A stretch of DNA of 64,000 bases from Blastococcus sp. CT_GayMR16 (GCF_004570875.1 NZ_SPQK01000013.1:1-64000), one strand, 5' to 3'. Shown: positions 2,451-41,349, counted from the stretch's first letter. Program-made: numbers and translations. The notes: generated by a model from the letters alone, not told the origin.

Positions 2451-2753
2451 GTGCACCTGTCCCCGCACGAGCAGGAACGGCTGCTGCTCTCCTACGCCGC
2501 CGAGCTGGCCCGCCGCCGCCGGGCGCGCGGCCTGAAGCTCAACCTGCCGGAGGCGACGGCGATCGTCACCGACCACGTGCTGGAGGGCGCGCGGGACGGC
2601 GTCCTGGTCGCCGAGCTCATGCAGTCCGGCCGCACGGTCCTCACCCGGGACGACGTCATGGACGGCGTCCCCGAGCTGCTGGAGGAGGTGCAGGTGGAGG
2701 CGACCTTCCCGGACGGGACGAAGCTGGTGACCGTCCATCAGCCCATCCAATGA
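2451..2753 (+). CDS. ureA: urease subunit gamma
   Basis: A 100-residue structural subunit of urease, which hydrolyses urea to ammonia and carbamate in the cytoplasm. It opens [13 protein letters not shown] and carries [20 protein letters not shown], both hallmarks of UreA, and its length is exactly that of the family. I chose GTG at 2451, not the longer open frame from 2331, because GGAGG at 2436-2440 is correctly spaced and the family N-terminus begins there. It overlaps ureB by 4 bp and is the first gene of ureABCFGD-allB. Confidence 0.95.
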
Positions 2754-3051
2754 TTCCGGGTGAGGTGTTCCCCGCCGAGGGGGTCATCGAGACGCTGCCG
2801 GGCGCACCGCGGATCGAGCTCGAGGTGTCCAACTCGGGTGACCGGCCGGTCCAGGTCGGCTCGCACTTCCACTTCGCCCAGACGAACAAGGCCCTCGTGT
2901 TCGACCGGGAGGCCGCTCACGGCCACCGGCTGGACATCGCGGCCGGCACCGCCGTCCGCTTCGAACCGGGGATCACCCGGAGCGTCACGCTCGTCCCGCT
3001 GGCCGGCGCGCGCGTCGTCCCGGGCCTCACCGCCGAAGGGGGCCTCCTCTA

Positions 3052-3052
<1 letters not shown>
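2750..3052 (+). CDS. ureB: urease subunit beta
   Basis: A 100-residue subunit beginning [11 protein letters not shown] and containing [19 protein letters not shown] and [17 protein letters not shown], both diagnostic of UreB. It forms the (alpha-beta-gamma)3 core with UreA and UreC. The 4-bp overlap with ureA and the 1-base stop/start sharing with ureC (TAGTG) indicate translational coupling of the three structural genes. Confidence 0.95.
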
Positions 3053-4773
<1,721 letters not shown>

Positions 4774-4786
4774 GGGGCCCTTTCCT

Positions 4787-5464
4787 ATGAACTCAGCGCT
4801 GCTCACGCTCGCCGACTCGCGGCTCCCGGCCGGCGGGCACACGCACTCCGGTGGCGTCGAGCAGGCGATCGCGGCCGGGGTGGTGCATGACCCGGGATCG
4901 CTGGCGGCGTTCCTGCGCCGTCGGCTGGCCACCTCGGGGGCGGTCGCCGCCGCGTTGGCCACCGCGGCCTGCGCTGCCATCGGTCCCGACGAAGGGGGCC
5001 CGGAGGGCGACAGTGTCATTGCGGACCTGGCGGCACTCGACGTGGAGGCAGATGCACGGACGCCGTCGCCGGCGCTGCGGGCGGCGTCCCGGCAGCAGGG
5101 CCGTGGCCTCGTCCGGGTCGGCCGCCGCGCCTGGCCGTCGGGCGCCTGGAACGCGCTACCGGCACTCCCCCACCACCCCATCGCGCTCGGCGTCGCCGCG
5201 GCGGTCGCCGGACTCGGCCCGCGAGATGCCGCGCAGGCCGCTGCCTACCTGTCGATCAGCGGGCCGGCGACGGCGGCGCAGCGCCTGCTCGCCATGGACC
5301 CGCTCACCGTCGCCGCCGTCACCGCACGGCTGGCGCCGGAGATCGACGCGGTCGCCGACGGCCTTCATGGTCATGACGGCCCCATCTCGGCCGCCACCGA
5401 TCCCCTCCTCGACCTGCTGGCCGAGGTCCACGCCGCACGGAAGGACAGGTTCTTTGCCTCCTGA
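4787..5464 (+). CDS. ureF: urease accessory protein UreF
   Basis: A 225-residue helical accessory protein that, with UreD and UreG, activates apo-urease and gates the GTPase of UreG. The opening [24 protein letters not shown] is typical of actinobacterial UreF, and the late [21 protein letters not shown] region matches the family end. It starts 13 bp after ureC. Its stop lies inside the start region of ureG, so UreF and UreG are probably translationally coupled. Confidence 0.9.
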
Positions 5465-6131
5465 CCACAACCTGGACGACTACGTCGACCCCTATGAGCA
5501 CGGACACCGCCACGGCGGCCCGCTGCGGGTCGGTCTGGGCGGTCCCGTCGGCTCGGGCAAGACCGCGCTGGCTGCGGCGCTCTGCCGGACGCTGGGGGAG
5601 GAGTACGACCTCGCCGTTGTCACCAACGACATCTACACGACCGAGGACGCCGACTTCCTGCGCCGCAACGCCGTCCTCCCCGACGACCGGATCGAGGCCG
5701 TGCAGACCGGCTGCTGCCCGCACACCGCGATCCGCGACGACATCACCGCCAACCTCGACGCCGTGGAACTCCTGGAGTCGCGGCACCCGGGGCTGGAGCT
5801 GGTCCTGGTCGAGTCGGGCGGGGACAACCTCACCGCGTCGTTCAGCTACGGGCTCATCGACGTCCAGGTGTTCGTGATCGACGTCGCCGGCGGGGACAAG
5901 GTGCCGCGCAAGGGCGGCCCCGGTGTGACCGCCGCCGACCTGCTCGTGGTCAACAAGACCGATCTCGCGCCGATGGTGGGTGCCGACCTGGACGTGATGC
6001 GCCGCGACTCCGCCGCCGTGCGGGGCGGCAAGCCGACCCTGCTGATCTCGCTGCGCGAGGACCCGACGGCCGCCCCGGTGGCGGAGTGGGTGCGTGAGCA
6101 GGTGCGGGCCCGGGCTCTGCAGACTACGTGA
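5454..6131 (+). CDS. ureG: urease accessory GTPase UreG
   Basis: A 225-residue SIMIBI GTPase that delivers nickel to urease. The P-loop GGPVGSGKT is at about 29-37, the nickel-binding Cys-Pro-His motif is in [12 protein letters not shown], and NKTD is the guanine-specificity motif. The only in-frame start that keeps the family N-terminus is TTG at 5454, with AAGGACAGG just upstream; it overlaps ureF by 11 bp. Residues 5-20 ([16 protein letters not shown]) contain four histidines and several acids. No ureE is present, so this stretch may help store nickel (inference). Confidence 0.93.
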
Positions 6132-6841
6132 AGACGTTCGTCGAGATCGTCGCCCGACCGGGCCCGGGTGGGCTGACGGTCCTGCCGGTGGTGCGGGCCA
6201 GCGGCCAGCTCGCCGTGCGCCGCACCGGCCCGACCACCGTGCACCTGGTCGCCACCGCCTTCGGTCCGCTCGGCGGGGACGACGCCGAGGTGTCCCTGGT
6301 CGTCGAGGAGGGCGCGTGCCTCGCCGTCCGGTCGGTGGCCGCCGCGATCGCCCTACCGGCCCGCGGTGCCATCGCGCCGTCGGCGCAGCGGATCACCGCC
6401 TCCGTCGACGGCGTGCTCGACCTCCGTCTCGAGCCCACGGTGGTGGCGGCCGGCGCCCACCACCTCGCCGGGCTGACCGTCGACCTCGGCCCGGCCGGAG
6501 CGCTGACCGCCACCGAGCAGGTGCTCCTGGGCCGCACCGGCGAGGAGCCGGGCCGGTGGACCGGGACCGTGCGCGTCGTCCGGGAGGGACGCCCGCTGTT
6601 GAACACGACGGTCGGGCTCGGACCCGACCAGCCCGCGTGGTTGCCACCGGTGGCCCCGCGGGCCTATGCATCCACGGTGCACATCGGCGACGACGAGGCG
6701 GACGTCCTGACGGGGGACGACGCCGTCCGGCTACCCCTCCCCGGCGGCTGGGTGACGACGGCCTGGGGATCGGAGCTGCACCGGGTCGTCCGGGCCGCGA
6801 CCCTGCTCACGCCGGGTGCGCCGGTGCGGGTGCCGGCATGA
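6128..6841 (+). CDS. ureD: urease accessory protein UreD/UreH
   Basis: A 237-residue scaffold protein that binds apo-urease together with UreF and UreG during nickel insertion. The family features are a beta-rich fold with [30 protein letters not shown] and [12 protein letters not shown]. Start is GTG at 6128, overlapping ureG by 4 bp. It is last of the urease genes, as in the ureABCFGD order of mycobacteria, and overlaps the allantoinase start by 4 bp (ATGA). Urease and ureide degradation therefore appear to share one transcript. Confidence 0.88.
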
Positions 6842-8148
6842 GCGGTCTCGTCGTCCGCGCCCGTCGGGTGGTGCTGCCCGACGGGGAGCGGGCCGCCGCC
6901 GTGCACACCGAGGACGGGCGGATCACTGCCGTCACCGCGTTCGACGACGCGCCCGCCGACGCCGTCACCCTGGCCGACGACGAGGTGCTGCTGCCGGGCC
7001 TGGTCGACAGCCATGTGCACGTCAACGAGCCGGGGCGCACCCACTGGGAGGGCTTCGCCTCCGCCACCCGCGCGGCGATCGCCGGGGGCGTCACCACGAT
7101 CGTCGACATGCCCCTGAACTCGATCCCGGCGACGACGTCGGTCGAGGCGTTGCACGTGAAACGAGAGGCGGCGAAAGGGCAGGTCGCGGCCGATGTCGCC
7201 TTCTGGGGCGGGGCCGTGCCCGGCAACCTCGACCAGCTGCGGCCGCTGCTCGACGCGGGCGTCGTCGGCTTCAAGTGCTTCCTGCTCGACTCCGGCGTGC
7301 CGGAGTTCCCGCCGCTGGACGAGGCCGGGCTGCGGGCGGTTCTCGCCGAACTGGCGGCCGTCGACGGGCTGCTGATCGCCCACGCCGAGGACGCCGACGT
7401 GATCGCGGCCGCGCCCGACCCCGTCGGCCCGAGCTACGCCGGTTTCCTCGCCTCGCGTCCGGGTGCGGCGGAGGAGACGGCGATCGGCCGGCTCGTGGCT
7501 GCGACCCGCGACACGGGGGCGCGCACCCACGTCGTGCACCTCGCCGACGCCGACGCGCTCCCGCTGCTGCGCCGCGCCCGCGCCGAGGGGGTGCAGATCA
7601 CCGTCGAGACCTGCCCGCACTACCTGACCTTCGCCGCCGAGGGGGTGCCCGACGGGGCGACGTCCTTCAAGTGCTGCCCGCCGATCCGCGAGGTGCGCCA
7701 CCGCGAGGGGCTGTGGTCGGCGCTGACCGACGGCGACGTCGATCAGGTGGTCAGCGACCACTCCCCGTGCACGCCGGACCTCAAGCGGCTCGAGGACGGC
7801 GACTTCGGCGCGGCCTGGGGCGGGATCGCCTCACTGCAGGTGGCCCTGCCCGCGGTCTGGACCGGCGCCCGGGAACGCGGCATCGCCCTGGCCGAGATCG
7901 TGCGCTGGATGGCCACGGCGCCGGCGCGGCTGGCCGGGCTGTCCACGAAGGGCGCGATCGAGGTCGGGAGGGACGCCGACCTGGTCGCATTCGCCCCCGA
8001 CGAGCGCTGGACGGTGGGCGACCTCGAGCACCGCAACCCGGTCACGCCCTACACCGGGCGGTCACTGACGGGCGCGGTCCGGCGGACGTGGCTGCGCGGC
8101 GAGATCGCCGACGGCTCCCCGATCGGACGACTGCTCGACCGGGGTTAG
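6838..8148 (+). CDS. allB: allantoinase
   Basis: A 436-residue cyclic amidohydrolase that opens allantoin to allantoate. The metal motif is GLVDSHVHVNEPGRTHWEG (about residues 53-71), the carbamylated Lys is in GVVGFKCFL, further metal His residues are in IAHAED and THVVHLAD, and the final catalytic Asp is in VVSDHSPC. NEPGRTHWEGF separates allantoinases from dihydroorotases and hydantoinases. It starts inside the ureD stop (ATGA), which ties purine-derived ureide breakdown to urease. Confidence 0.93.
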   Translation: MSGLVVRARRVVLPDGERAAAVHTEDGRITAVTAFDDAPADAVTLADDEVLLPGLVDSHVHVNEPGRTHWEGFASATRAAIAGGVTTIVDMPLNSIPATTSVEALHVKREAAKGQVAADVAFWGGAVPGNLDQLRPLLDAGVVGFKCFLLDSGVPEFPPLDEAGLRAVLAELAAVDGLLIAHAEDADVIAAAPDPVGPSYAGFLASRPGAAEETAIGRLVAATRDTGARTHVVHLADADALPLLRRARAEGVQITVETCPHYLTFAAEGVPDGATSFKCCPPIREVRHREGLWSALTDGDVDQVVSDHSPCTPDLKRLEDGDFGAAWGGIASLQVALPAVWTGARERGIALAEIVRWMATAPARLAGLSTKGAIEVGRDADLVAFAPDERWTVGDLEHRNPVTPYTGRSLTGAVRRTWLRGEIADGSPIGRLLDRG

Positions 8149-8300
8149 GCCTCGCTGCCCTTGCGCGTCTCGTCGAAGGTCTTCGGGTCGGACTGGTCGC
8201 CGCCCTCGGGGTCGGGATTGCCGAGGGCGGTCTCGGCGGGCAGGTGCTCCACGTAGTCCTTGGCGCGGGCTTCGAGGTCGTCGCGGTCAGGCGTCGTCAT
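8145..8300 (-). CDS. small acidic hypothetical protein
   Basis: A 51-residue, strongly acidic protein without hydrophobic stretches or cysteines; the tail is DETRKGSEA. Its stop codon overlaps the last 4 bases of allB on the other strand, and it is divergent from the allantoicase gene 84 bp away. I do not recognise a family. Codon pattern and a clean ATG start suggest it is real. It may be a lineage-specific small protein. Confidence 0.5.
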   Translation of the reverse strand: MTTPDRDDLEARAKDYVEHLPAETALGNPDPEGGDQSDPKTFDETRKGSEA

Positions 8301-8384
8301 CAGTGCTCCCAGCGGTGAGTGCGAGGTCCGGGCCCCGTCGTGCCACAGTGATCCGCGCCGATCCGCAGCACAAGAGGGAGCTCG

Positions 8385-9503
8385 ATGACCGACTTCACCC
8401 GTCTGCCCGATCTGGCGAGCCGTGCGCTCGGCGGCGCGGTGGTGGCGGCCAACGACGAGTTCTTCGCGGCCCGGGAGAACCTCGTGCTGCCCGAGCCGGC
8501 GGTCGAGCGCACCGAGTTCGGCCACAAGGGCAAGGAGTACGACGGCTGGGAGACCCGCCGCCGCCGCACCCCCGGCCACGACTGGGCGATCGTCCGGCTC
8601 GGCGCGCCCGGCATCGTGGGGGGCATCGTCGTCGACACCGCGTTCTTCAGCGGCAACTATCCGCCGCACGCCTCGCTCGACGGCGCCGCGATCGAGGGGC
8701 ACTGCTCGGTCGACGAGCTGACCAAGGCCGACTGGCAGCCGCTGCTCGCGCTGCACGACCTGGCCGGCAACACCCACAACCACTTCCCGGTGTTCTCCGA
8801 CCGCCGGGTCACCCACGTGCGGCTCAACATCCACCCGGACGGCGGGGTCGCGCGGCTGCGGGTGCACGGGACGGCGCTGCCCGACCCGAGGCTGGTCGAC
8901 GCCGGCCCGTTCGACCTGGCGGCACTGGAGAACGGCGGCCTGGTCACCGGGGTGAGCAACGAGTTCTACGGCCGGCCGTCCCAGCTGATCGCCCCGGGGC
9001 TGGCCCGTTCGATGGGGGAGGGCTGGGAGACCGCCCGGCGGCGCGATTCCGCCAACGACTGGGTCGAGGTGCAGCTGGCCTGCGAGGGCGTGGTGACCCT
9101 GCTCGAGCTGGACACCTCCTACTTCCTCGGCAACGCCCCCGGCACCGCGGCCCTCACCGGCAGCGGGCCTGCCGGCGAGGTCCCGCTGCTGCCGCGCACC
9201 CGCCTGCAGCCCGACACCAGGCACCGCTTCGTCCTGGAGGGCGCGCCCGGCGTCGACCGGGTGCGGCTGGACGTCTACCCGGACGGCGGCATGGCCCGGC
9301 TGCGGTTGTGGGGCCGTCCCACGCCCGCGGGGCGGGCGGCCCTGGGGCGGCGGTGGTTCGACGCGCTGCCCGACGTCCAGGCGCTGGAGGTGCTCGGCTC
9401 GGTCGGGGTGCCCCCGCAGGAGGCCGGCCGCCTGGTCGGCGCCCGGCCGCTGGGCGCGGACCTGCCCCCGCAGGTCGCCCGGCTGCTCGACGGGCCCGCC
9501 TGA
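8385..9503 (+). CDS. alc: allantoicase
   Basis: A 372-residue protein with two similar halves (about 25-175 and 195-335), each with a beta-sandwich signature: YDGWETRRRRTPGHDWAIVRLG and its counterpart GWETARRRDSANDWVEVQLA. This internal duplication is characteristic of allantoicase, which splits allantoate to ureidoglycolate and urea. NIHPDGGVARLRVHG and DVYPDGGMARLRLWG are the paired repeat ends. Start is ATG at 8385 after GAGGGAG. The urea made here would feed the urease operon directly upstream. Confidence 0.93.
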   Translation: MTDFTRLPDLASRALGGAVVAANDEFFAARENLVLPEPAVERTEFGHKGKEYDGWETRRRRTPGHDWAIVRLGAPGIVGGIVVDTAFFSGNYPPHASLDGAAIEGHCSVDELTKADWQPLLALHDLAGNTHNHFPVFSDRRVTHVRLNIHPDGGVARLRVHGTALPDPRLVDAGPFDLAALENGGLVTGVSNEFYGRPSQLIAPGLARSMGEGWETARRRDSANDWVEVQLACEGVVTLLELDTSYFLGNAPGTAALTGSGPAGEVPLLPRTRLQPDTRHRFVLEGAPGVDRVRLDVYPDGGMARLRLWGRPTPAGRAALGRRWFDALPDVQALEVLGSVGVPPQEAGRLVGARPLGADLPPQVARLLDGPA

Positions 9504-9579
9504 GGTCGCACGCGAACCCGTGGGCGTGGGGCGTCGGCGTCGATAGGGTCGCCCCTTCCGTTCCCCCCGAGGAGCTGCC

Positions 9580-9903
9580 GTGTCCCGCCGCCTTCGCGAG
9601 CTCGCCGTTCTCCCGTTCCTGCTCGCCGGCCTGGCGGCCTGCAGCGCCAGCGTCGGCAGTACCTCCACACTGAGCGCCGACGAGGTTGCGTCCAGCGCCG
9701 AGGACGCGCTGGAGGAGCAGATCGGCGTCCGCCCGACGATCAGCTGCCCGGAGGACCTCGAGGCCAAGGTCGGCGAGGAGGCCCGGTGCACGCTGACCGG
9801 CGGTGACGACCCGACCGAGTACGGGGTCACCGTGCGGGTGACCTCGGTCGACGGCAACGACGCGACCTTCGACGTCGAGGTGGACGAGGAACCGCTGGGC
9901 TGA
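9580..9903 (+). CDS. DUF4333-type secreted lipoprotein
   Basis: A 107-residue exported protein. Residues 1-21 form a lipoprotein signal with lipobox LAAC (cysteine about 21), so the mature chain is probably membrane-anchored on the outside. The mature part has the DUF4333 pattern: ISCPEDLEAKVGEEARCTLT followed by YGVTVRVTSVDG, with two cysteines able to form a disulfide. Start is GTG at 9580 after GAGGAG. Function is unknown. Its place between purine-catabolism genes may be chance. Confidence 0.8.
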   Translation: MSRRLRELAVLPFLLAGLAACSASVGSTSTLSADEVASSAEDALEEQIGVRPTISCPEDLEAKVGEEARCTLTGGDDPTEYGVTVRVTSVDGNDATFDVEVDEEPLG

Positions 9904-9940
9904 GGGGCCCGGCGCCCGCCCGAAACACGACGTCGGCAGG

Positions 9941-11329
9941 ATGCCGGGTGTGGAGAGCCCCGTGCGCGCCGACCTGCTGATCACCGACGCCGAACTCGTC
10001 GCCACCGTCGACGACGCCCGCCGCGAGATCGCGGGCGGCTGGGTCGCGGTCACCGGCGGCGCGATCAGCGGCGTCGGCGGGCCGGGTGACCACACGCCCG
10101 ACGCCGTCCGCACCATCGATGCCCGGGGCTGCCTGGTCACACCGGGGCTGGTCAACACCCACCACCACCTGTACCAGAACCTGACCCGCGCCTTCGCGCC
10201 CGCGCTGACCGGCGGGCTCTTCGACTGGCTCGTGACGCTCTATCCGCTGTGGGCGCGGCTCGACGAGGAGGCGGCCTACGTCAGCGCCTACGTCGGGCTC
10301 ACCGAGCTCGCGCTCGGCGGCTGCACGACGTCCACCGACCACCTCTACGTCCATCCGCGGGGCGCCGGCGACCTGATCGCCGCCGAGGTGGCCGCGGCGC
10401 GCGACCTCGGCATGCGGTCCCACTTCACCCGCGGCTCGATGTCGCGGTCGGTCAAGGACGGCGGGCTGCCACCGGACAGCGTCGTCCAGGACGACGACGA
10501 GATCCTCGCCGAGTCCGAGCGCCTGGTCGCGGCCCACCACGACCGGACCCCGCTGGCGATGACCCGGATCGCGCTCGCGCCGTGCTCGCCGTTCAGCGTC
10601 TCGACGTCGCTGATGAGCCGCACCGCGGAGCTGGCCGAGCGGCTCGACGTCCGGCTGCACACCCACCTGGCCGAGACCCAGGACGAGAACGACTTCTGCC
10701 TGTCGCAGTTCGGCCGGCGTCCGGTCGACTACCTCGCCGACGTCGGCTGGATGAGCGACCGGGTGTGGCTGGCCCACGTCGTCTGGCCTTCGGCGGAGGA
10801 GGTCACCCGCCTGGGTGCGGCGCGGGTCGGGGCCGCGCACTGCCCGTCGTCCAACATGATCCTGGGCAGCGGGCTGTCCCCGGTCGCGGAGCTCCGGGTC
10901 GCGGGCGCGCCGGTGGGGCTCGGCGTGGACGGGTCGTCGTCGGCGGACTCGGCATCGCTGTGGCTGGAGGCCCGGACGGCGATGCTGCAGGGGAAGCTGC
11001 GCCACGGCGCCGGCTCGATGTCGGCCCGCGACGCCCTGGAGATCGCCACGCGCGGCGGCGCCGCGTGCCTGGGCCGCACCGGTGAGATCGGTGAGCTGTC
11101 GGTCGGCGCGTGCGGCGACCTGGTGGTCTGGCCGCTGACCGGTCCGGCGTTCGCCGGCGCGCTCTCGGACCCGGTCGAGGCATGGCTGCGGTGCGGACCG
11201 GTGGCGGCGCTGCACACCGTCGTCGGCGGCCGGCTCGTCGTGGAGGACGGCGTCCCGGTGCACTCGGGCCTCGACGAGCAGCTCGCCGTCCACCGCCGGG
11301 TGTCCGGGGCGATGCAGTCAGCCCTCTGA
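9941..11329 (+). CDS. 8-oxoguanine deaminase-type amidohydrolase
   Basis: A 462-residue amidohydrolase of the TrzN/AtzB/8-oxoguanine deaminase group. The metal site NTHHHLYQN (about 72-80), HTHLAETQDEN, AHVVWPS and GVDGSSSADS match 8-oxoguanine deaminases, which convert 8-oxoguanine to urate and ammonia. The mononuclear metal set is intact. Urate would enter the ureide route completed by the neighbouring allantoinase and allantoicase. Related guanine or triazine deaminases cannot be excluded. The start may be ATG 9941 or GTG 9950. A hairpin terminator follows immediately. Confidence 0.8.
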   Translation: MPGVESPVRADLLITDAELVATVDDARREIAGGWVAVTGGAISGVGGPGDHTPDAVRTIDARGCLVTPGLVNTHHHLYQNLTRAFAPALTGGLFDWLVTLYPLWARLDEEAAYVSAYVGLTELALGGCTTSTDHLYVHPRGAGDLIAAEVAAARDLGMRSHFTRGSMSRSVKDGGLPPDSVVQDDDEILAESERLVAAHHDRTPLAMTRIALAPCSPFSVSTSLMSRTAELAERLDVRLHTHLAETQDENDFCLSQFGRRPVDYLADVGWMSDRVWLAHVVWPSAEEVTRLGAARVGAAHCPSSNMILGSGLSPVAELRVAGAPVGLGVDGSSSADSASLWLEARTAMLQGKLRHGAGSMSARDALEIATRGGAACLGRTGEIGELSVGACGDLVVWPLTGPAFAGALSDPVEAWLRCGPVAALHTVVGGRLVVEDGVPVHSGLDEQLAVHRRVSGAMQSAL

Positions 11330-35378: not shown

Positions 35379-35771
35379 TCGCGGTGGCCGGGCCTGGCTG
35401 CCGGGTGGACGCCGCTGGGCGGGAGAGCTACCGGGCCGTGACTCCCGGTGCCGACACGCGGGCCGACGGAACGCATTCTGCGTACAACTCGGTAGAAGGC
35501 AATTCTGTTGACTCCGTCTCCGTCACGTGACGCATTGCGACGACCGCTCGGCGTGTTCGCGATTCCCTGAACGCTGAGTGAGCGCATTCACAAGATCGCT
35601 GCGTACGTTCCGGTCGTCGCAGCAGGACTACAGAGCTCGAGCGCACGTTCCAGGGGAGCGCACGTTCCAGGGGGAGTGCCTTTCTCGGCGGTTCGGTGAC
35701 TTTCCCTCACCGGCTGGCTGCGACGTCATGTCGGTGATCGCCCGTCGTGGGTGGTCGGTGAAAGGACGCGC
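35379..35771 (+). other. 393-bp gene-free regulatory stretch before the DUF4331 operon
   Basis: No credible gene is visible here; short open frames on both strands lack family-like sequence and start signals. The 35460-35640 part is less GC-rich than the surroundings. It contains a 12-bp palindrome CGTCACGTGACG (35521-35532) and three copies of GCGYACGTTCC (35601, 35641, 35658). A good ribosome-binding site (GAAAGGA) precedes the ATG at 35772. The length and motifs suggest a regulated promoter region for the operon downstream. Confidence 0.55.
35639..35672 (+). repeat. 17-bp tandem direct repeat
   Basis: Two perfect adjacent copies of GAGCGCACGTTCCAGGG (35639-35655 and 35656-35672). A related GCGTACGTTCC lies 40 bp upstream (35601-35611). 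Spaced direct repeats of this size in a promoter region are typical of transcription-factor binding sites. Confidence 0.7.
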
Positions 35772-37562
35772 ATGCCCAGTTCCAGACGACTCCTCCAAAC
35801 AAGGGGGGGCCGTGCCACCGCGATGATCGCCGCGGGCGGCCTGCTCGCCGGTTCGACCGTGATCGGGCTCCTGCCCACCCTCGCCGGGGCCTCCAGCCAC
35901 CGCGAGGCTCCGCTCATCGCGGCAGACCCCGCCGTGGACAACACCGACGTCTACGCCTTCTCGAGCCCGGAGAACCCCGACAACGTCGCGCTCGTCGCCA
36001 ACTGGATCCCGTTCGAGGAGCCTAACGGCGGCCCGAACTTCTACCCGTGGTCCGACGACGCCGAATACCTGATCAACATCGACAACGACGGCGACGCCGT
36101 GGCCGATCTGATCTACCGGTGGCGCTTCACCACCGATGACCGTCGCAGCACCGACACGTTCCTCTACAACAACGGGCCGGTCGACTCCCTCGACGACGAG
36201 AACCTGCTCTTCCGCCAGTCCTTCACGCTCGACGTGAGCACCGACGGCGGCGGTTCCTACGGATCACCGATCGCCGAAGGCCCCGTGGCGCCGTCCTACA
36301 CCGGGCCGGCCAGCATGGGCTCTTCGCAGAGCTACGTCGACAACCTGCGCACCCCGGCGATCACCGACGTGGACGGCGGCGGGCGCACCCTGACCACCCA
36401 GGCCGAGGACTCGTTCTTCCTCGACCTCCGGGTCTTCGACCTGCTCTACGGTGCCAACCTGTCCGAGACCGGTCAGGACACCCTCGCGGGCTACAACGTG
36501 AACAGCATCGTTCTCGAGGTGCCCAAGACCGAGGTCGCGATCGGCAACGACGCCACGAACAACCCGGTCATCGGCGTGTGGAGCACGACCACACGGCCGA
36601 CCATGCGCAATGCCGACGGGACGGCATCGGGCAACGGGTTCACCCAGGTCTCCCGCCTGGGCATGCCGCTGGTCAACGAGGTCGTCGTCCCGACCGGACT
36701 CAAGGACGCCTTCAACTCCATCTCGCCTGACATGGACGCCGACGCCGCCGACGGCGCGGTCGTGGACCGCGTGCTCGACCCCGAGGTGCCGAAGCTCATC
36801 GAGGCGATCTACGGCGTTCCGGCGCCCGCGGCGCCGCGATGGGACATCTTCGAGGTGTTCCTGACGGGGGTCGTCAGCACCGAGACCTACGACATCGACG
36901 GGGATGCGGCCACGGCCAACCCCATCGACGTGGACCTCAACTCGCAGGCGATCAACGCCGATTCGCCGGCCAATGCGGACCGGGCGGCCTTCCAGCCGTC
37001 GGAGATGCTGCGGCTGAACATGGCCATCACCGGGCCGACGGACCTGAACATGCAGCCGCTGCCGGAGGCCAGCCGGCTCGGAGTCATCGGCGGTGACATC
37101 CAGGGCTTCCCGAACGGTCGCCGGCTCGCCGACGACGTGGTGGACATCGAGATCCTCGCGCTCGAGGGCATCTACGACGTCACCAACCCGGGTGATCGGC
37201 AGGCGGCCTTCGACGCCCTGAAGGGCGGCGACGGGGTCAACTCCAACGACAACGCGTTCAGCGGCTCGTTCCCCTACATCGCCGGCCCGAACACACAGGC
37301 CGTCAACCAGGGTGGTGGCACCGGTGCCGGCGGTACGGACACCGCCGCGGGCAACGGCAACCCGGTGCAGCCGGCGGCTCAGCCGCAGGCCAACGGGTAT
37401 CCCCGAGGCGGCGTCGAGACCGGTGCAGGCGGTGTCGGGGACACCATCATCCCGGCGCTCACCGGCTCGGCCGCGCTCCTGCTCATCGGTGCCGGTGCCG
37501 GGTCGCTGATCCGGGGCAGGGCTCTGCGTCGGTCGACGACCTCCGGCACGCCGGAGGTCTGA
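35772..37562 (+). CDS. secreted DUF4331 protein with C-terminal anchor
   Basis: A 596-residue exported protein. A long signal peptide (about 1-36, twin-Arg-free, with a hydrophobic AAGGLLAGSTVIGLLPTLAG core) precedes ASSHREAPLIAADPAVDNTDVYAF, the diagnostic start of DUF4331. Acidic NIDNDGDAVADLIYRW and ETYDIDGDAATANPIDVD look like calcium-binding turns. The C-terminus has GGVETGAGG, a TM helix (about 558-580) and a basic tail (RGRALRRS), resembling a sorting signal for the class F sortase encoded next. ATG 35772 follows GAAAGGA. Confidence 0.85.
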   Translation: MPSSRRLLQTRGGRATAMIAAGGLLAGSTVIGLLPTLAGASSHREAPLIAADPAVDNTDVYAFSSPENPDNVALVANWIPFEEPNGGPNFYPWSDDAEYLINIDNDGDAVADLIYRWRFTTDDRRSTDTFLYNNGPVDSLDDENLLFRQSFTLDVSTDGGGSYGSPIAEGPVAPSYTGPASMGSSQSYVDNLRTPAITDVDGGGRTLTTQAEDSFFLDLRVFDLLYGANLSETGQDTLAGYNVNSIVLEVPKTEVAIGNDATNNPVIGVWSTTTRPTMRNADGTASGNGFTQVSRLGMPLVNEVVVPTGLKDAFNSISPDMDADAADGAVVDRVLDPEVPKLIEAIYGVPAPAAPRWDIFEVFLTGVVSTETYDIDGDAATANPIDVDLNSQAINADSPANADRAAFQPSEMLRLNMAITGPTDLNMQPLPEASRLGVIGGDIQGFPNGRRLADDVVDIEILALEGIYDVTNPGDRQAAFDALKGGDGVNSNDNAFSGSFPYIAGPNTQAVNQGGGTGAGGTDTAAGNGNPVQPAAQPQANGYPRGGVETGAGGVGDTIIPALTGSAALLLIGAGAGSLIRGRALRRSTTSGTPEV

Positions 37563-37572
37563 CCCGCTCGTC

Positions 37573-37608
37573 GGCTGTGGGGTGCGGCTCCGGCCGCACC
37601 CCACAGCC
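37573..37608 (+). terminator. perfect 16-bp hairpin between DUF4331 and sortase genes
   Basis: Stem 37573-37588 pairs fully with 37593-37608 around a TCCG tetraloop. It begins 11 bp after the DUF4331 stop and ends 35 bp before the sortase start. It could be a partial terminator that lets the abundant surface protein be made in excess of the downstream enzymes. Confidence 0.7.
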
Positions 37609-37643
37609 ACGCCCCCGGGCAGCACCGTTTCGAAGGAGATCCT

Positions 37644-38453
37644 GTGTCCGGCACCACCCAGCCCCCACCCTCCCAGGATGACGCCTCCGACAACGAGCCG
37701 TCGCTGCTGGAGTCCGAGTTCCGGAAGGGCGACGGGCCTGCCCGCAGCCGTCGCTGGGGCATTCCTGTCTGGCTGCTCCCCACCCTTGGCGCGCTGGCTG
37801 CCGGTGTACTCGTCGGCTACTTCATTTTCGGCGGAACCGACGCCCGCGCCCCCCGCCCAGTCGCCGCGGTCCCGACCACGACATCCGAGGCACCTCAGCC
37901 GGCCTCGCCCGTCGTCACCTCATTGGCCCGCGCCGAGCCCGTCCAGCTCGACATCCCGGCCATCGAGGTGAGCTCCTCGCTGGTCGACCTCGGGCTCAAC
38001 ACCGACGGCACCCTCGAGGTGCCGGTCGACTTCGCCAAGGCCGGCTGGTTCACCGGCGGCAATTACCCCGGCGATCCGCAGGGCCCGCCCGCACTGCTCG
38101 CCGGACACGTCGACGACTACACCGGCCCGGCCGTCTTCTACCGGCTGCCCGAGCTGGCGGTGGGCGACGAGGTGCTCGTGACCCGCGCCGACAACACCGT
38201 CGCGGTCTTCTCCGTGACCGGGAGCCAGCAGTACCCGAAGGATGCCCTGCCGACCGACCAGGTCTACGCCCCCGTCGGCGACTCGGAGATCGTGCTCATC
38301 ACGTGCACCGGAGACTTCGACCGGTCCGCGCGGTCCTACCAGGACAACCTCGTCGTCCGCGCCACGCTCAACATGGCGCGATCCCTCGAGGAGAGCGACA
38401 AGCGCGCTGCCTCCGGTCAGCCGGTGCCAGCCGCCGACCTCCCGAACGTCTGA
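37644..38453 (+). CDS. class F sortase
   Basis: A 269-residue transpeptidase. A cytoplasmic N-terminus is followed by one TM helix (about 42-63), a linker rich in Pro/Thr and the sortase beta-barrel (95-245). Catalytic His155 is in LLAGHVDDYTGPAVFYRL, Cys221 in VLITCTGDFD, and Arg residues follow at 227 and 239. These features match actinobacterial class F sortases. It would cut an adjacent surface protein and join it to the cell wall. Start is GTG 37644 after AAGGAG. Confidence 0.9.
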   Translation: MSGTTQPPPSQDDASDNEPSLLESEFRKGDGPARSRRWGIPVWLLPTLGALAAGVLVGYFIFGGTDARAPRPVAAVPTTTSEAPQPASPVVTSLARAEPVQLDIPAIEVSSSLVDLGLNTDGTLEVPVDFAKAGWFTGGNYPGDPQGPPALLAGHVDDYTGPAVFYRLPELAVGDEVLVTRADNTVAVFSVTGSQQYPKDALPTDQVYAPVGDSEIVLITCTGDFDRSARSYQDNLVVRATLNMARSLEESDKRAASGQPVPAADLPNV

Positions 38454-38455
38454 CC

Positions 38456-39763
38456 GTGCGCAGGCGGACCGCGGTGAGCGCGGTGGTGGCCGGAGTCATC
38501 TTCCTGCTGGTCTCGGCGGCTGGCTTCTACACGGTCTTCGTGGACCGGGGCGCCGAGGCTCGGGAGCAGCAGGCGGTGGCGGAGGTCGACCCTCTCACAG
38601 CGTCCATCGAGGTGGCGCAGCAGCGGCTGCAGGAGGTTCCGGGCGACTACACCACCTGGGCGCAGCTGGGCTCCGCCTACGTCGAGCAGGCACGGGTCAC
38701 CGCGGACCCCTCCTTCTACGACAAGGCGGATGGCGCCCTCCAGGAGTCGCTGATCCGGCGGCCGGAGGGCAACGACACCGCACTCACGGGGCAGGGCGCG
38801 CTGGCCAACGCCCGGCACGACTTCGCCGCGGCGGCGGACCTCGCCACCCGGGCGCTGGCGATCAACTCCTACAACGCCACCGCGTGGGGCGTGCTCACCG
38901 ATGCGCGCACCCAGTTGGGGGACTATCCGGGGGCGACGGAAGCGGTTCAGCGGATGCTCGAACTGAAGCCGGGTCTGGCATCGTTCACCCGGGCGTCTTA
39001 CGACGCGGAACTGCATGGAGACCTGGCCGGGGCCCGTTCGGCGCTCGAGCAGGCTCTCGACATCACGCAGGGTGGCGCGGGCGAGGCCTACTGCCGCACC
39101 TACCTCGGGGCTCTAGCGTTCGCTACCGGCGACCTCGAAGGCGCGGCCGAGCAGTACACCGCCGGCCTGAAGGCGAGGCCGTCCGACCCAGCCCTGCTGC
39201 TGGGCCGTGCCCGCGTGCTCGCAGCGCGAGGCGAGGAGACCGCCGCGATCGAAACCTTCCAGGCGGTAGTGAACGCGCAGCCGCTGCCTGAGTACCTCGT
39301 GGAGTTCGGCGCGTACCTGGAGTCGCAGGGGCGGGCCGCAGACGCCGAACAGCAGTTCGCGCTGGTCGAGACCGTCCGCCGGCTGTTTGTGGCGAGCGGC
39401 GTGACCGACGACCTCTCGACGGCACTGTTCGCTGCTGATCACGGCGATCCGGCCGTGGCGGTAGCCGCGGCCCAGGCCGAGTTCGATCGGCGGCAGAACA
39501 TCGACTCCCACGATGCCATGGCCTGGGCTCTGCACAGCGCCGGGCGCGACGCCGAGGCACTGCCGCACGCCCAGCAGGCGACCGCCCTCGGCGGCGCCAG
39601 CGCGCTCTTCCTCTACCACCGCGGAGTGATCGAAGCGGCGGTCGGACAGATCGACCAGGCGCGGGCGAGCTTGGCCGAGGCCCTGGACACCAATCCCGAC
39701 TTCTCACCGCTGCACGCACCCCGGGCCGAGGGGCTGCTCGAGTCGCTGGGCGGGCGTCCGTGA
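38456..39763 (+). CDS. membrane-anchored TPR protein
   Basis: A 435-residue protein with an N-terminal TM/signal segment (about 6-24) and an extracytoplasmic chain of tetratricopeptide repeats from about 45 to the end. Clear repeats are TWAQLGSAYVEQARV, ATRALAINSYNATAWGVLTDA and LDTNPDFSPLHAPRAEGLLES. It is probably a scaffold on the outer face of the membrane. GTG 38456 starts 2 bp after the sortase stop and the gene overlaps the transporter gene by 4 bp. Confidence 0.82.
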   Translation: MRRRTAVSAVVAGVIFLLVSAAGFYTVFVDRGAEAREQQAVAEVDPLTASIEVAQQRLQEVPGDYTTWAQLGSAYVEQARVTADPSFYDKADGALQESLIRRPEGNDTALTGQGALANARHDFAAAADLATRALAINSYNATAWGVLTDARTQLGDYPGATEAVQRMLELKPGLASFTRASYDAELHGDLAGARSALEQALDITQGGAGEAYCRTYLGALAFATGDLEGAAEQYTAGLKARPSDPALLLGRARVLAARGEETAAIETFQAVVNAQPLPEYLVEFGAYLESQGRAADAEQQFALVETVRRLFVASGVTDDLSTALFAADHGDPAVAVAAAQAEFDRRQNIDSHDAMAWALHSAGRDAEALPHAQQATALGGASALFLYHRGVIEAAVGQIDQARASLAEALDTNPDFSPLHAPRAEGLLESLGGRP

Positions 39764-41349
39764 GAGGGCGGCGGCTCCTCGCCGTCATTCTCGGCGCCGG
39801 AGCGTTGTGGGCGGTCGCGCCAGGAGTCGCCCAGGCCCACCCCCTCGGCAACTTCACGGTCAATCACTACGATCATGTCCAACTGCAGCCCGGCCGGGTC
39901 CAGGTGACGACCGTCCTCGACCGTGCCGAGATACCGACCGCGCAGAAGCTGCAGATTGTCGCCCCGGACGGGTCACCGACGGCCGCCCAGCTCGCGTCGG
40001 CAGCCGCGGAGGAGTGCGCTGACGTCGCCGGCGCCGTCCAGGTCACCGTCGACGGCGCGGCGGTGGGGTGGACCGTGCAGGACACCGGGATGGAGACGAT
40101 CCCGGGTGCCGGCGGACTGCCCACTCTGCGGTTGACCTGCCGGTTCGAGGCCGACGCCGAGCTCGACGTCCCCGCCGAGATCGCCGTCAGTGACACGTAT
40201 CTGCCCGACCGCGTGGGCTGGCGGGAGATGACGGCGGACGGCGACGGCGTCCGGCTGATCGATTCCCCGGTGCCGGTCACGAGCGTCTCGGACGAACTGC
40301 GTCAATACCCGACAGACCTGCTGGCCTCTCCGGTCGACGTCCGATCGTTCACGGTCGCGACCGAGCCCGGGCAGAACACCGGCACCGGGTCGGCGATCAC
40401 GCCCGGCTCGGGCGACCCGTTCACGAACTTCATCGCCGGCCTGGACCGACGGCTGGAGGACCTGATCGGCGACCGCGGCTTGACTCCGCTGGTCGGAACT
40501 CTCGCCGTCCTGCTCGCCGTCCTGCTCGGCTGCGGGCACGCCCTGCTTCCCGGGCACGGGAAGACCGTGATGGCCGCCTACCTGGCTGCCCGCCGTGGAC
40601 GAAGCCGGGACGCGATCATCGTCGGCGCGACGGTGACGGCAACCCACACCGTGGGCGTACTCGTGCTCGGGCTGGCCATCTCGCTGTCGAGCACCCTGGC
40701 CGGGGATCAGGTGATCCGCTGGCTCGGGGTCGGCAGCGGCCTCCTCGTCGCCGGCATCGGGGCGTTCATGCTGCGCGCGGCGCTGCCGAGACGTCGTGGG
40801 GTTCCGACGCTGATCAGCGAGGTGCTTCCCGAGCCGGTGCTGGCGGGCGCGGTGCACGCGGCGGGCAGCGGTGGAGCCGTGCACGCCCCCACCGTCCCCG
40901 AGCACGCCGGCCACGACCACCATCACGACCATGCGCACGGCCATGACCACGGCCACCACCACGACCATGCGCACGGGCAGGGTTGGTGGGCTGGAGGCCA
41001 CACGCACGGACCGGCCCGCGGCCGCGCGGGGCTGATCGGCATGGGCGTGGCGGGCGGTCTGGTGCCCAGCCCGTCCGCGCTGATCGTCCTGCTGGCCTCG
41101 ATCGGGCTGGGACGCACGGTCTTCGGCGTCCTTCTGGTGCTCGCCTACGGTCTGGGAATGGCGGGCACCCTCACCGCTGTCGGTCTGCTGCTGGTCAGGC
41201 TGCGCGGTCGCATGGAGCGTCGCCTGGCCGACCTGCGCGGACGCAGATGGCTCACGCGGGTCGCGATCGCGGCCCCCGTGCTGACGGCGAGTCTCGTTCT
41301 CCTGGTCGGCGTGGCGCTCGTTGCTCGCGGTGCAGTGCTCGGCGCCTGA
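39760..41349 (+). CDS. NicO/RcnA-type nickel-cobalt transporter with extracellular domain
   Basis: A 529-residue protein. A signal peptide (1-26, ending AQA) precedes HPLGNFTVNHYDHVQLQPGR, the start of an extracellular domain to about residue 235. The transporter part has the NicO motif HALLPGHGKTVMAAYLAARRG (about 263-283), six to seven TM segments, and a loop near 383-420 with about 16 histidines (HDHHHDHAHGHDHGHHHDHAHG region). His-rich loops bind Ni, Co or Zn. Import for urease or export for detoxification are both possible. Confidence 0.85.
   Translation: MRGRRLLAVILGAGALWAVAPGVAQAHPLGNFTVNHYDHVQLQPGRVQVTTVLDRAEIPTAQKLQIVAPDGSPTAAQLASAAAEECADVAGAVQVTVDGAAVGWTVQDTGMETIPGAGGLPTLRLTCRFEADAELDVPAEIAVSDTYLPDRVGWREMTADGDGVRLIDSPVPVTSVSDELRQYPTDLLASPVDVRSFTVATEPGQNTGTGSAITPGSGDPFTNFIAGLDRRLEDLIGDRGLTPLVGTLAVLLAVLLGCGHALLPGHGKTVMAAYLAARRGRSRDAIIVGATVTATHTVGVLVLGLAISLSSTLAGDQVIRWLGVGSGLLVAGIGAFMLRAALPRRRGVPTLISEVLPEPVLAGAVHAAGSGGAVHAPTVPEHAGHDHHHDHAHGHDHGHHHDHAHGQGWWAGGHTHGPARGRAGLIGMGVAGGLVPSPSALIVLLASIGLGRTVFGVLLVLAYGLGMAGTLTAVGLLLVRLRGRMERRLADLRGRRWLTRVAIAAPVLTASLVLLVGVALVARGAVLGA

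Follow-up and report, generated by a model that had tools for sequence, protein, structure and literature searches.

A conserved DUF4331-TPR-NicO gene module with an optional class F sortase: a candidate cell-envelope system for transition metals

The genes for a DUF4331 protein, a membrane-anchored TPR protein and a NicO permease are the conserved core of a gene module, with linkage far above chance, and one such module is encoded in the 64,000-nucleotide stretch of Blastococcus sp. CT_GayMR16 DNA that was analyzed here (hereinafter, the window). This linkage, the dedication of a class F sortase to the adjacent DUF4331 protein and the metal-type features of the module are well supported. With respect to function, the best reading, to which we give slightly less than an even chance, is that the module is a cell-envelope system for the handling of transition metals (Ni/Co, possibly Cu), most likely involved in their capture and uptake; this reading is unproven, and metal efflux and a metalloenzyme function are serious rivals.

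As described in the sequence-only reading of this DNA, four plus-strand genes follow each other in the order DUF4331, class F sortase, TPR protein and NicO permease, all recognized by the respective profiles (PF14224, PF04203/NF033748, TPR Pfams and PF03824). Export features are present as well: DUF4331 has a Sec-type signal peptide and the TPR protein a membrane anchor, while NicO combines a signal peptide with an extracellular domain and a His-rich stretch. The features of the window are as follows (positions from its first base).

2451-11329: urease cluster, then allantoicase and two other amidohydrolase genes
35772..37562, plus strand: DUF4331 gene, 596 aa (PF14224, 466 bits, 1.9e-139; ATG start, AAAGGA upstream)
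35772..35891, plus strand: DUF4331 signal peptide, 40 aa, ending in A-G-A (from sequence; Sec-type, cleavage between AGA and SSHREAP)
35892..35900, plus strand: predicted mature N-terminus Ser-Ser-His, ATCUN-type NH2-X-X-His (alignment, cleavage rule)
35892..37289, plus strand: DUF4331 domain, beta-rich core with helices (model; close solved fold not found)
37401..37559, plus strand: putative DUF4331 C-terminal sorting signal (PRGGVETGAGG at 37401-37433, hydrophobic stretch at ~37440-37511, basic tail RGRALRR)
37644..38453, plus strand: class F sortase gene (PF04203; NF033748, E 1.5e-48)
38456..39763, plus strand: gene for the membrane-anchored TPR protein (PF07719/PF14559 and others; N-terminal membrane anchor)
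39760..41349, plus strand: gene for the NicO permease with an extracellular anglerase-like domain (PF03824, 46.7 bits)
39838..40371, plus strand: NicO extracellular domain, mature N-terminus HPLGN, invariant H1, C60 and C101 (alignment; fold match)
40840..41015, plus strand: NicO His-rich loop, predicted cytoplasmic (18 His within a 60-residue stretch; located behind membrane helix 3)

The DUF4331 and sortase genes are separated by 81 bases and the sortase and TPR genes by 2, and the TPR and NicO genes overlap by 4 bases; an overlap of exactly this length was found in 73 of 80 TPR-NicO pairs (gene calls) and is typical. Upstream of the DUF4331 gene, the tandem direct repeat AGCGCACGTTCCAGGGG is present in two copies (window 35640-35675). 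The search for promoters and terminators gave nothing beyond chance level, and riboswitch control of the module was dropped as a candidate because an Rfam scan of eight module loci produced no match.

The conserved core and its genomic neighborhoods

Within the order, DUF4331 is encoded in 48 of 121 genomes. The TPR family (profile A1, 21 rows) adjoins DUF4331 in 21 of the fetched order loci, nearly always together with NicO; the order loci with a distant DUF4331 (~35% identity) contain neither TPR nor NicO. Among 396 evenly drawn Actinomycetota genomes, the TPR family is represented in 53 and DUF4331 in 55, with both found in 46 (hypergeometric probability 2e-43, a value that ignores kinship), and 46 of the 61 DUF4331 places in these genomes lie within 5 kb of a TPR gene, in support of the earlier proposal of a conserved multi-gene system. 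A further sample, biased towards the module clade because its 80 named loci were picked by similarity, covers more than 30 genera and eight named families, and includes TPR in 75 loci and TPR together with NicO in 66. Gene order and orientation differ between loci (DUF-TPR-NicO, TPR-NicO-DUF or divergent); thus, the adjacency of the three genes has outlasted rearrangement. The sequence-only reading had named adjacency limited to close relatives as an outcome that would speak against a system, and for the core, the linkage extends well beyond close relatives.

Several other genes recur near the module. Among 95 loci, SigK-type ECF sigma factors were found in 17 (one of these reaches 286 bits with the SigK model, for which the cut-off is 226) and RskA-like anti-sigma factors in 9, a pattern which suggests that a SigK-like pair controls the module in some lineages; fasciclin proteins were found in 5. 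In 5 loci, from Amycolatopsis and Streptomyces/Kitasatospora, a NicT nickel permease gene adjoins the module (580 bits, with a cut-off of 450, for the one that was scored), which we count in favor of a metal-related role. A small lipoprotein with a conserved Cys recurs in 10 loci and may also belong to the system. The form encoded beside NicO (L084:7020-7349 and similar) is ~110 aa long, contains CMKHQP...YTANG..CDG and has no Pfam match. In Streptomyces (L183-L190), a TPR paralog occurs without DUF4331, flanked on one side by a gene for an FAD-linked oxidase and on the other by a gene resembling 4-hydroxyphenylpyruvate dioxygenase.

Beyond Actinomycetota, a small sample consisting of plasmid records only was surveyed. 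On Pseudomonadota plasmids, from Marinobacter, Lichenicola, Pseudoalteromonas and a member of the Comamonadaceae, DUF4331 is followed by genes for a TPR or TPR-like protein and for a HupE/UreJ permease that includes an extracellular domain. For Variovorax and Paraburkholderia, where the records are unannotated, tblastn located both TPR and HupE near DUF4331. A Nostoc plasmid (Cyanobacteriota) carries DUF4331, then TPR, then a NicO permease with the N-terminus HPLGNFT, and an Adhaeribacter plasmid (Bacteroidota) carries DUF4331 followed by TPR alone. Directly 5' of its DUF4331 gene, Pseudoalteromonas encodes a sigma factor together with an anti-sigma factor of the RskA type. On Rhodobacterales plasmids (L159, L160, L164, L171, L172), the DUF4331 gene has type II secretion genes and a prepilin peptidase gene as neighbors, which gives the impression of a dedicated secretion system; the Adhaeribacter DUF4331 protein (L161:5899-8319) has a type IX secretion sorting domain (PF18962) at its C-terminal end.

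The urease of the window, which the sequence-only reading had suggested as a possible beneficiary of the module, is encoded ~30 kb away, near allantoicase and other amidohydrolases, in what is likely a ureide degradation region. Urease is present in 20 of the 53 TPR-bearing genomes and in 45 of the 343 others, and 9 of these 20 belong to one genus. We rejected service to urease as the dedicated purpose of the module, given that urease was not seen in 33 of the 53 TPR-bearing genomes.

Metal-type features of DUF4331 and NicO

In all 103 exported DUF4331 proteins with readable N-termini, the signal-peptidase site, deduced by the -3,-1 rule, directly abuts the conserved SSHREAP, with the preceding residue being A in 100, G in 2 and S in 1. 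The DUF4331 proteins without a signal peptide start with Met-SSHREAP or Met-SSHKEAP, and remote ones with Met-SDH, Met-SHH or Met-SNH. A Met ahead of Ser is normally removed. Thus, two unrelated routes, cleavage by signal peptidase in exported proteins and Met removal in cytosolic ones, should yield the identical NH2-Ser-X-His. S1 and H3 are invariant across 82 aligned homologs, exported and cytosolic; the same mature start is found in Pseudomonadota, and SDH in Nostoc. The NH2-X-X-His arrangement is the ATCUN motif, which binds Cu(II) and Ni(II) (PMC7701195), and the predicted N-termini fit this motif in all exported homologs by sequence and cleavage rule, and in cytosolic ones by Met removal. 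The mature Ser-x-His can accordingly be described as a putative Cu(II)/Ni(II)-binding ATCUN-type terminus, a clue that points to metal.

The DUF4331 of the window, with the nearest named relative in Blastococcus saxobsidens (82% identity), is exported and probably anchored to the cell wall. The structural model has a pLDDT of 89 and a pTM of 0.92, with a modest pLDDT of 71 for the N-terminal ten residues, a point that we count against capture and uptake. Comparison with solved structures retrieved no convincing relative (Foldseek best E 0.013; VIA best Z 7.7, among unrelated beta-sandwiches), and PDB sequence relatives were found for neither DUF4331 nor the sortase nor the NicO domain; the lack of a recognizable fold relative for the DUF4331 model does not by itself show that the fold is new. 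The search of the open literature found no paper naming DUF4331 or PF14224. Beyond the N-terminus, there are many invariant residues in the alignment of the 82 homologs, including R255, R410, N275 and D282, which appears to be more than a plain metal carrier would need and also counts against capture and uptake, as does the apparent functioning of the cytosolic DUF4331 proteins without a permease. In favor of a metal-related role, 5 of 12 cytosolic DUF4331 genes have as a neighbor the gene for an unrelated protein containing His-rich tracts. The cytosolic loci (L038, L039, L041, L043, L052, L055, L059, L070) have small partner genes of their own, one encoding a protein of 96-156 aa, often with HD-repeat or poly-His tracts, and the other a protein of 86-97 aa with a twin-arginine-like N-terminus.

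The NicO permease passes the Pfam gathering score (27.7) for PF03824. With 63.4 bits, it fails the cut-off of 195 for the RcnA efflux model PRK10019, which is still the closest characterized permease model and, as such, is counted against capture and uptake. The NiCoT signature HX4DH is missing in the NicO of the window and in 79 of 82 homologs. The predicted mature protein starts with NH2-His-Pro, and H1 and P2 are invariant in 59 aligned NicO proteins. In the AlphaFold model of the mature protein, residues 11-150 are good (pLDDT mostly >90) and the loop is poor. The best solved match of the extracellular domain is 9gce, the Cu-bound anglerase Ang-1 (Foldseek E 2.6e-4, prob 1.00; VIA Z 9.1, rmsd 3.5, 139 residues aligned), followed in VIA by Zn-binding ZrgA (Z 8.0) and PA4063 (Z 6.9), and in the model, helices 31-41 and 49-66 are inserted between strands, in keeping with the immunoglobulin-like beta-sandwich of anglerases, where helices separate strands 2 and 3. 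When compared as profiles, the extracellular domains of NicO and HupE matched weakly (prob 6), so that homology between these domains rests on the fold match.

A His-rich stretch with at least 6 His in 20 residues is present in 81 of 82 NicO homologs. The loop had been considered a surface feature; topology prediction places it in the cytoplasm instead, because the N-terminus is outside, three membrane helices precede the loop, and RRGRSR and RRR are located on its side of the membrane.

A class F sortase and its sorting signal

The sortase is borderline with respect to the class F model NF033748 (164.4 bits in hmmscan and 166.1 in the genome search, with a cut-off of 166), and no other class scores anywhere close; the catalytic His (LLAGHVDD), Cys (LITCTGDF) and Arg (SARSYQDN) are present in the sequence. 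The DUF4331 protein carries a putative C-terminal sortase signal that the sequence-only reading overlooked. It scores 16.5 to 23.8 bits (23.8 in the genome search), under the cut-off of 29, with the NF058571 GVDTG_CTERM model, and its anatomy is complete. Among 112 DUF4331 proteins, a signal of this GGVxTGxGG type, defined as the G-rich motif with a hydrophobic stretch and basic residues, is found in 15 of the 15 with an adjacent sortase and in 4 of the 97 others; of these 4 exceptions, one has a sortase two genes off and one sits at a contig end. In a quick DUF4331 tree, the sortase switches between present and absent on at least 9 occasions, and in 7 independent pairs, the motif tracks the sortase in ~6 and shows the opposite in none (sign test, median p 0.03). 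In one locus (L204), the motif pointed to a sortase that was absent from the gene calls and present in the ORF listing.

The proposal that the sortase acts on its DUF4331 neighbor thus gained support from this co-occurrence, and its placement among the core parts was given up because most loci lack it: going by motif and neighborhood, the class F sortase looks like an optional accessory of the module, dedicated to the adjacent DUF4331. Such pairing of sortase and substrate looks general in the genome that includes the window and encodes three class F sortases. The sortase on contig C43 lies directly 3' of a gene with the same signal type, VPAGGVETGAGG, and that on contig C17 adjoins a gene with the called end including VPVGSVDAGGG. 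The C43 sortase gene overlaps the end of the gene for the secreted protein that carries VPAGGVETGAGG (L182:3516-4984).

Functional readings and comparison with known systems

Under capture and uptake, the exported DUF4331, trimmed to an N-terminal Ser-x-His able to chelate Cu(II) or Ni(II), would be attached to the cell wall by the dedicated class F sortase in the window, and the membrane-anchored TPR protein would be a scaffold bridging wall and membrane. The anglerase-like domain of NicO, via its N-terminal His, would take the ion and present it to the channel, and the cytoplasmic His-rich loop may buffer or gate the ion inside. Of the cell-surface Ni/Co capture proposed in the sequence-only reading, the metal theme stands, with Ser-x-His and the NicO His1 and anglerase fold behind it. 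What the analysis demonstrates is the linkage, the sequence features, the fold similarity of the NicO domain and the co-occurrence of sortase and signal; metal binding and transfer, the direction of transport and the nature of the metal are inferences from these. A broader proposition, to which we commit ourselves more hesitantly still, is that DUF4331 founds a class of surface metal binders with Ser-x-His, spread over at least four phyla, that are conserved alongside a TPR scaffold and a permease of the anglerase type, and that are delivered by class F sortase, type II or type IX secretion depending on the lineage.

Metal efflux or envelope tolerance, whereby an RcnA-like NicO would export, with the His-rich loop collecting excess Ni/Co and DUF4331 and TPR retaining the ion outside, appears unlikely to us. 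The RcnA family provides the best named permease model, the loop is predicted on the cytoplasmic side, where loading of an exporter would need it, and the SigK/RskA-type ECF pairs that recur as neighbors usually answer to envelope stress; against these points stand the NicT importer adjoining several loci, the fact that the same position is filled in Pseudomonadota by permeases of the HupE/UreJ type, whose family is known to take up Ni, and the anglerase domain turned towards the medium, which suggests inward capture (PMC12537917).

We are similarly skeptical of DUF4331 being a surface metalloenzyme or redox protein that TPR and the permease would load with metal and that would hold Ser-x-His in the active site. 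An N-terminal His is part of the active site in Ni-superoxide dismutase and lytic monooxygenases, and many invariant polar residues are scattered across the 470-residue DUF4331 domain; moreover, cytosolic and Rhodobacterales DUF4331 have no TPR or permease nearby, and the same protein appears to be delivered by three surface machines (sortase, neighboring type II secretion and the T9SS tail). However, structure searches recognized no enzyme fold in DUF4331, and genes for a substrate or pathway are not recurrent among the neighbors. A structural or signaling surface complex, for example, an envelope sensor for the SigK/RskA pair, with the permease and the His residues only loosely metal-related, we consider improbable: it would account for the sigma and anti-sigma factors (17 and 9 of 95 loci) and the pair directly preceding DUF4331 in Pseudoalteromonas, but such a pair is missing from the vicinity of the module in most loci, including the window, and this reading would not explain why both N-terminal His features are invariant.

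If capture and uptake is the correct reading, the anglerase principle would be widened from HupE/UreJ to NicO permeases, class F sortases would gain a substrate signal and a purpose (PMC13251363), and the large DUF4331 family of unknown function would become a testable metal-binding protein with a first role. The module is a new type of operon with partly known components. In Isd-type relays, the surface protein that binds heme or metal is anchored by a sortase of its own, of class B, and passes its cargo to a membrane transporter. The module shares with these the dedicated sortase, the anchored binder and the membrane transporter, but has a class F sortase and a G-rich signal without LPXTG/NPQTN, and lacks a NEAT domain and an ABC transporter. 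Closer at hand, the class F sortases of Actinoplanes missouriensis adjoin proteins without LPXTG that the authors suspected as substrates, with the physiological role of the sortases unknown (PMC13251363). The neighbor of the sortase in the module likewise has a signal peptide, a C-terminal hydrophobic stretch, a basic tail and no LPXTG; beyond that study, the module supplies a signal motif, the 9 changes in the tree and a substrate family.

Among permeases, RcnA and the NiCoT transporters NicT/HoxN (PF03824) resemble the NicO of the module in the NicO fold, the GHGKTxMAAYL-type motif and the His-rich loop, whereas the latter differs in the added extracellular domain, the score under the RcnA cut-off and the missing HX4DH. 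The anglerases, described in 2025 in Nat Commun on HupE/UreJ-2 permeases (PDB 9GCE), have affinities of 74 nM for Cu and 220 nM for Ni, and their proposed role is to fish metal for these permeases; NicO, DUF4331 and the TPR partner are all absent from that paper (PMC12537917). Like Ang-1 and Ang-2, the extracellular domain of NicO is a predicted beta-sandwich with an N-terminal His freed by removal of the signal peptide and is fused to a Ni-type permease, and the Pseudomonadota DUF4331 operons themselves carry the HupE_UreJ_2 type. Unlike Ang-HupE, the permease of the window is a PF03824 NicO with a cytoplasmic His loop, not a PF13795 HupE/UreJ-2. By analogy, the module would work like an anglerase-permease supplemented with a surface binder, yet its permease is not Ang-HupE, and we set the module apart from these systems rather than count it as a member.
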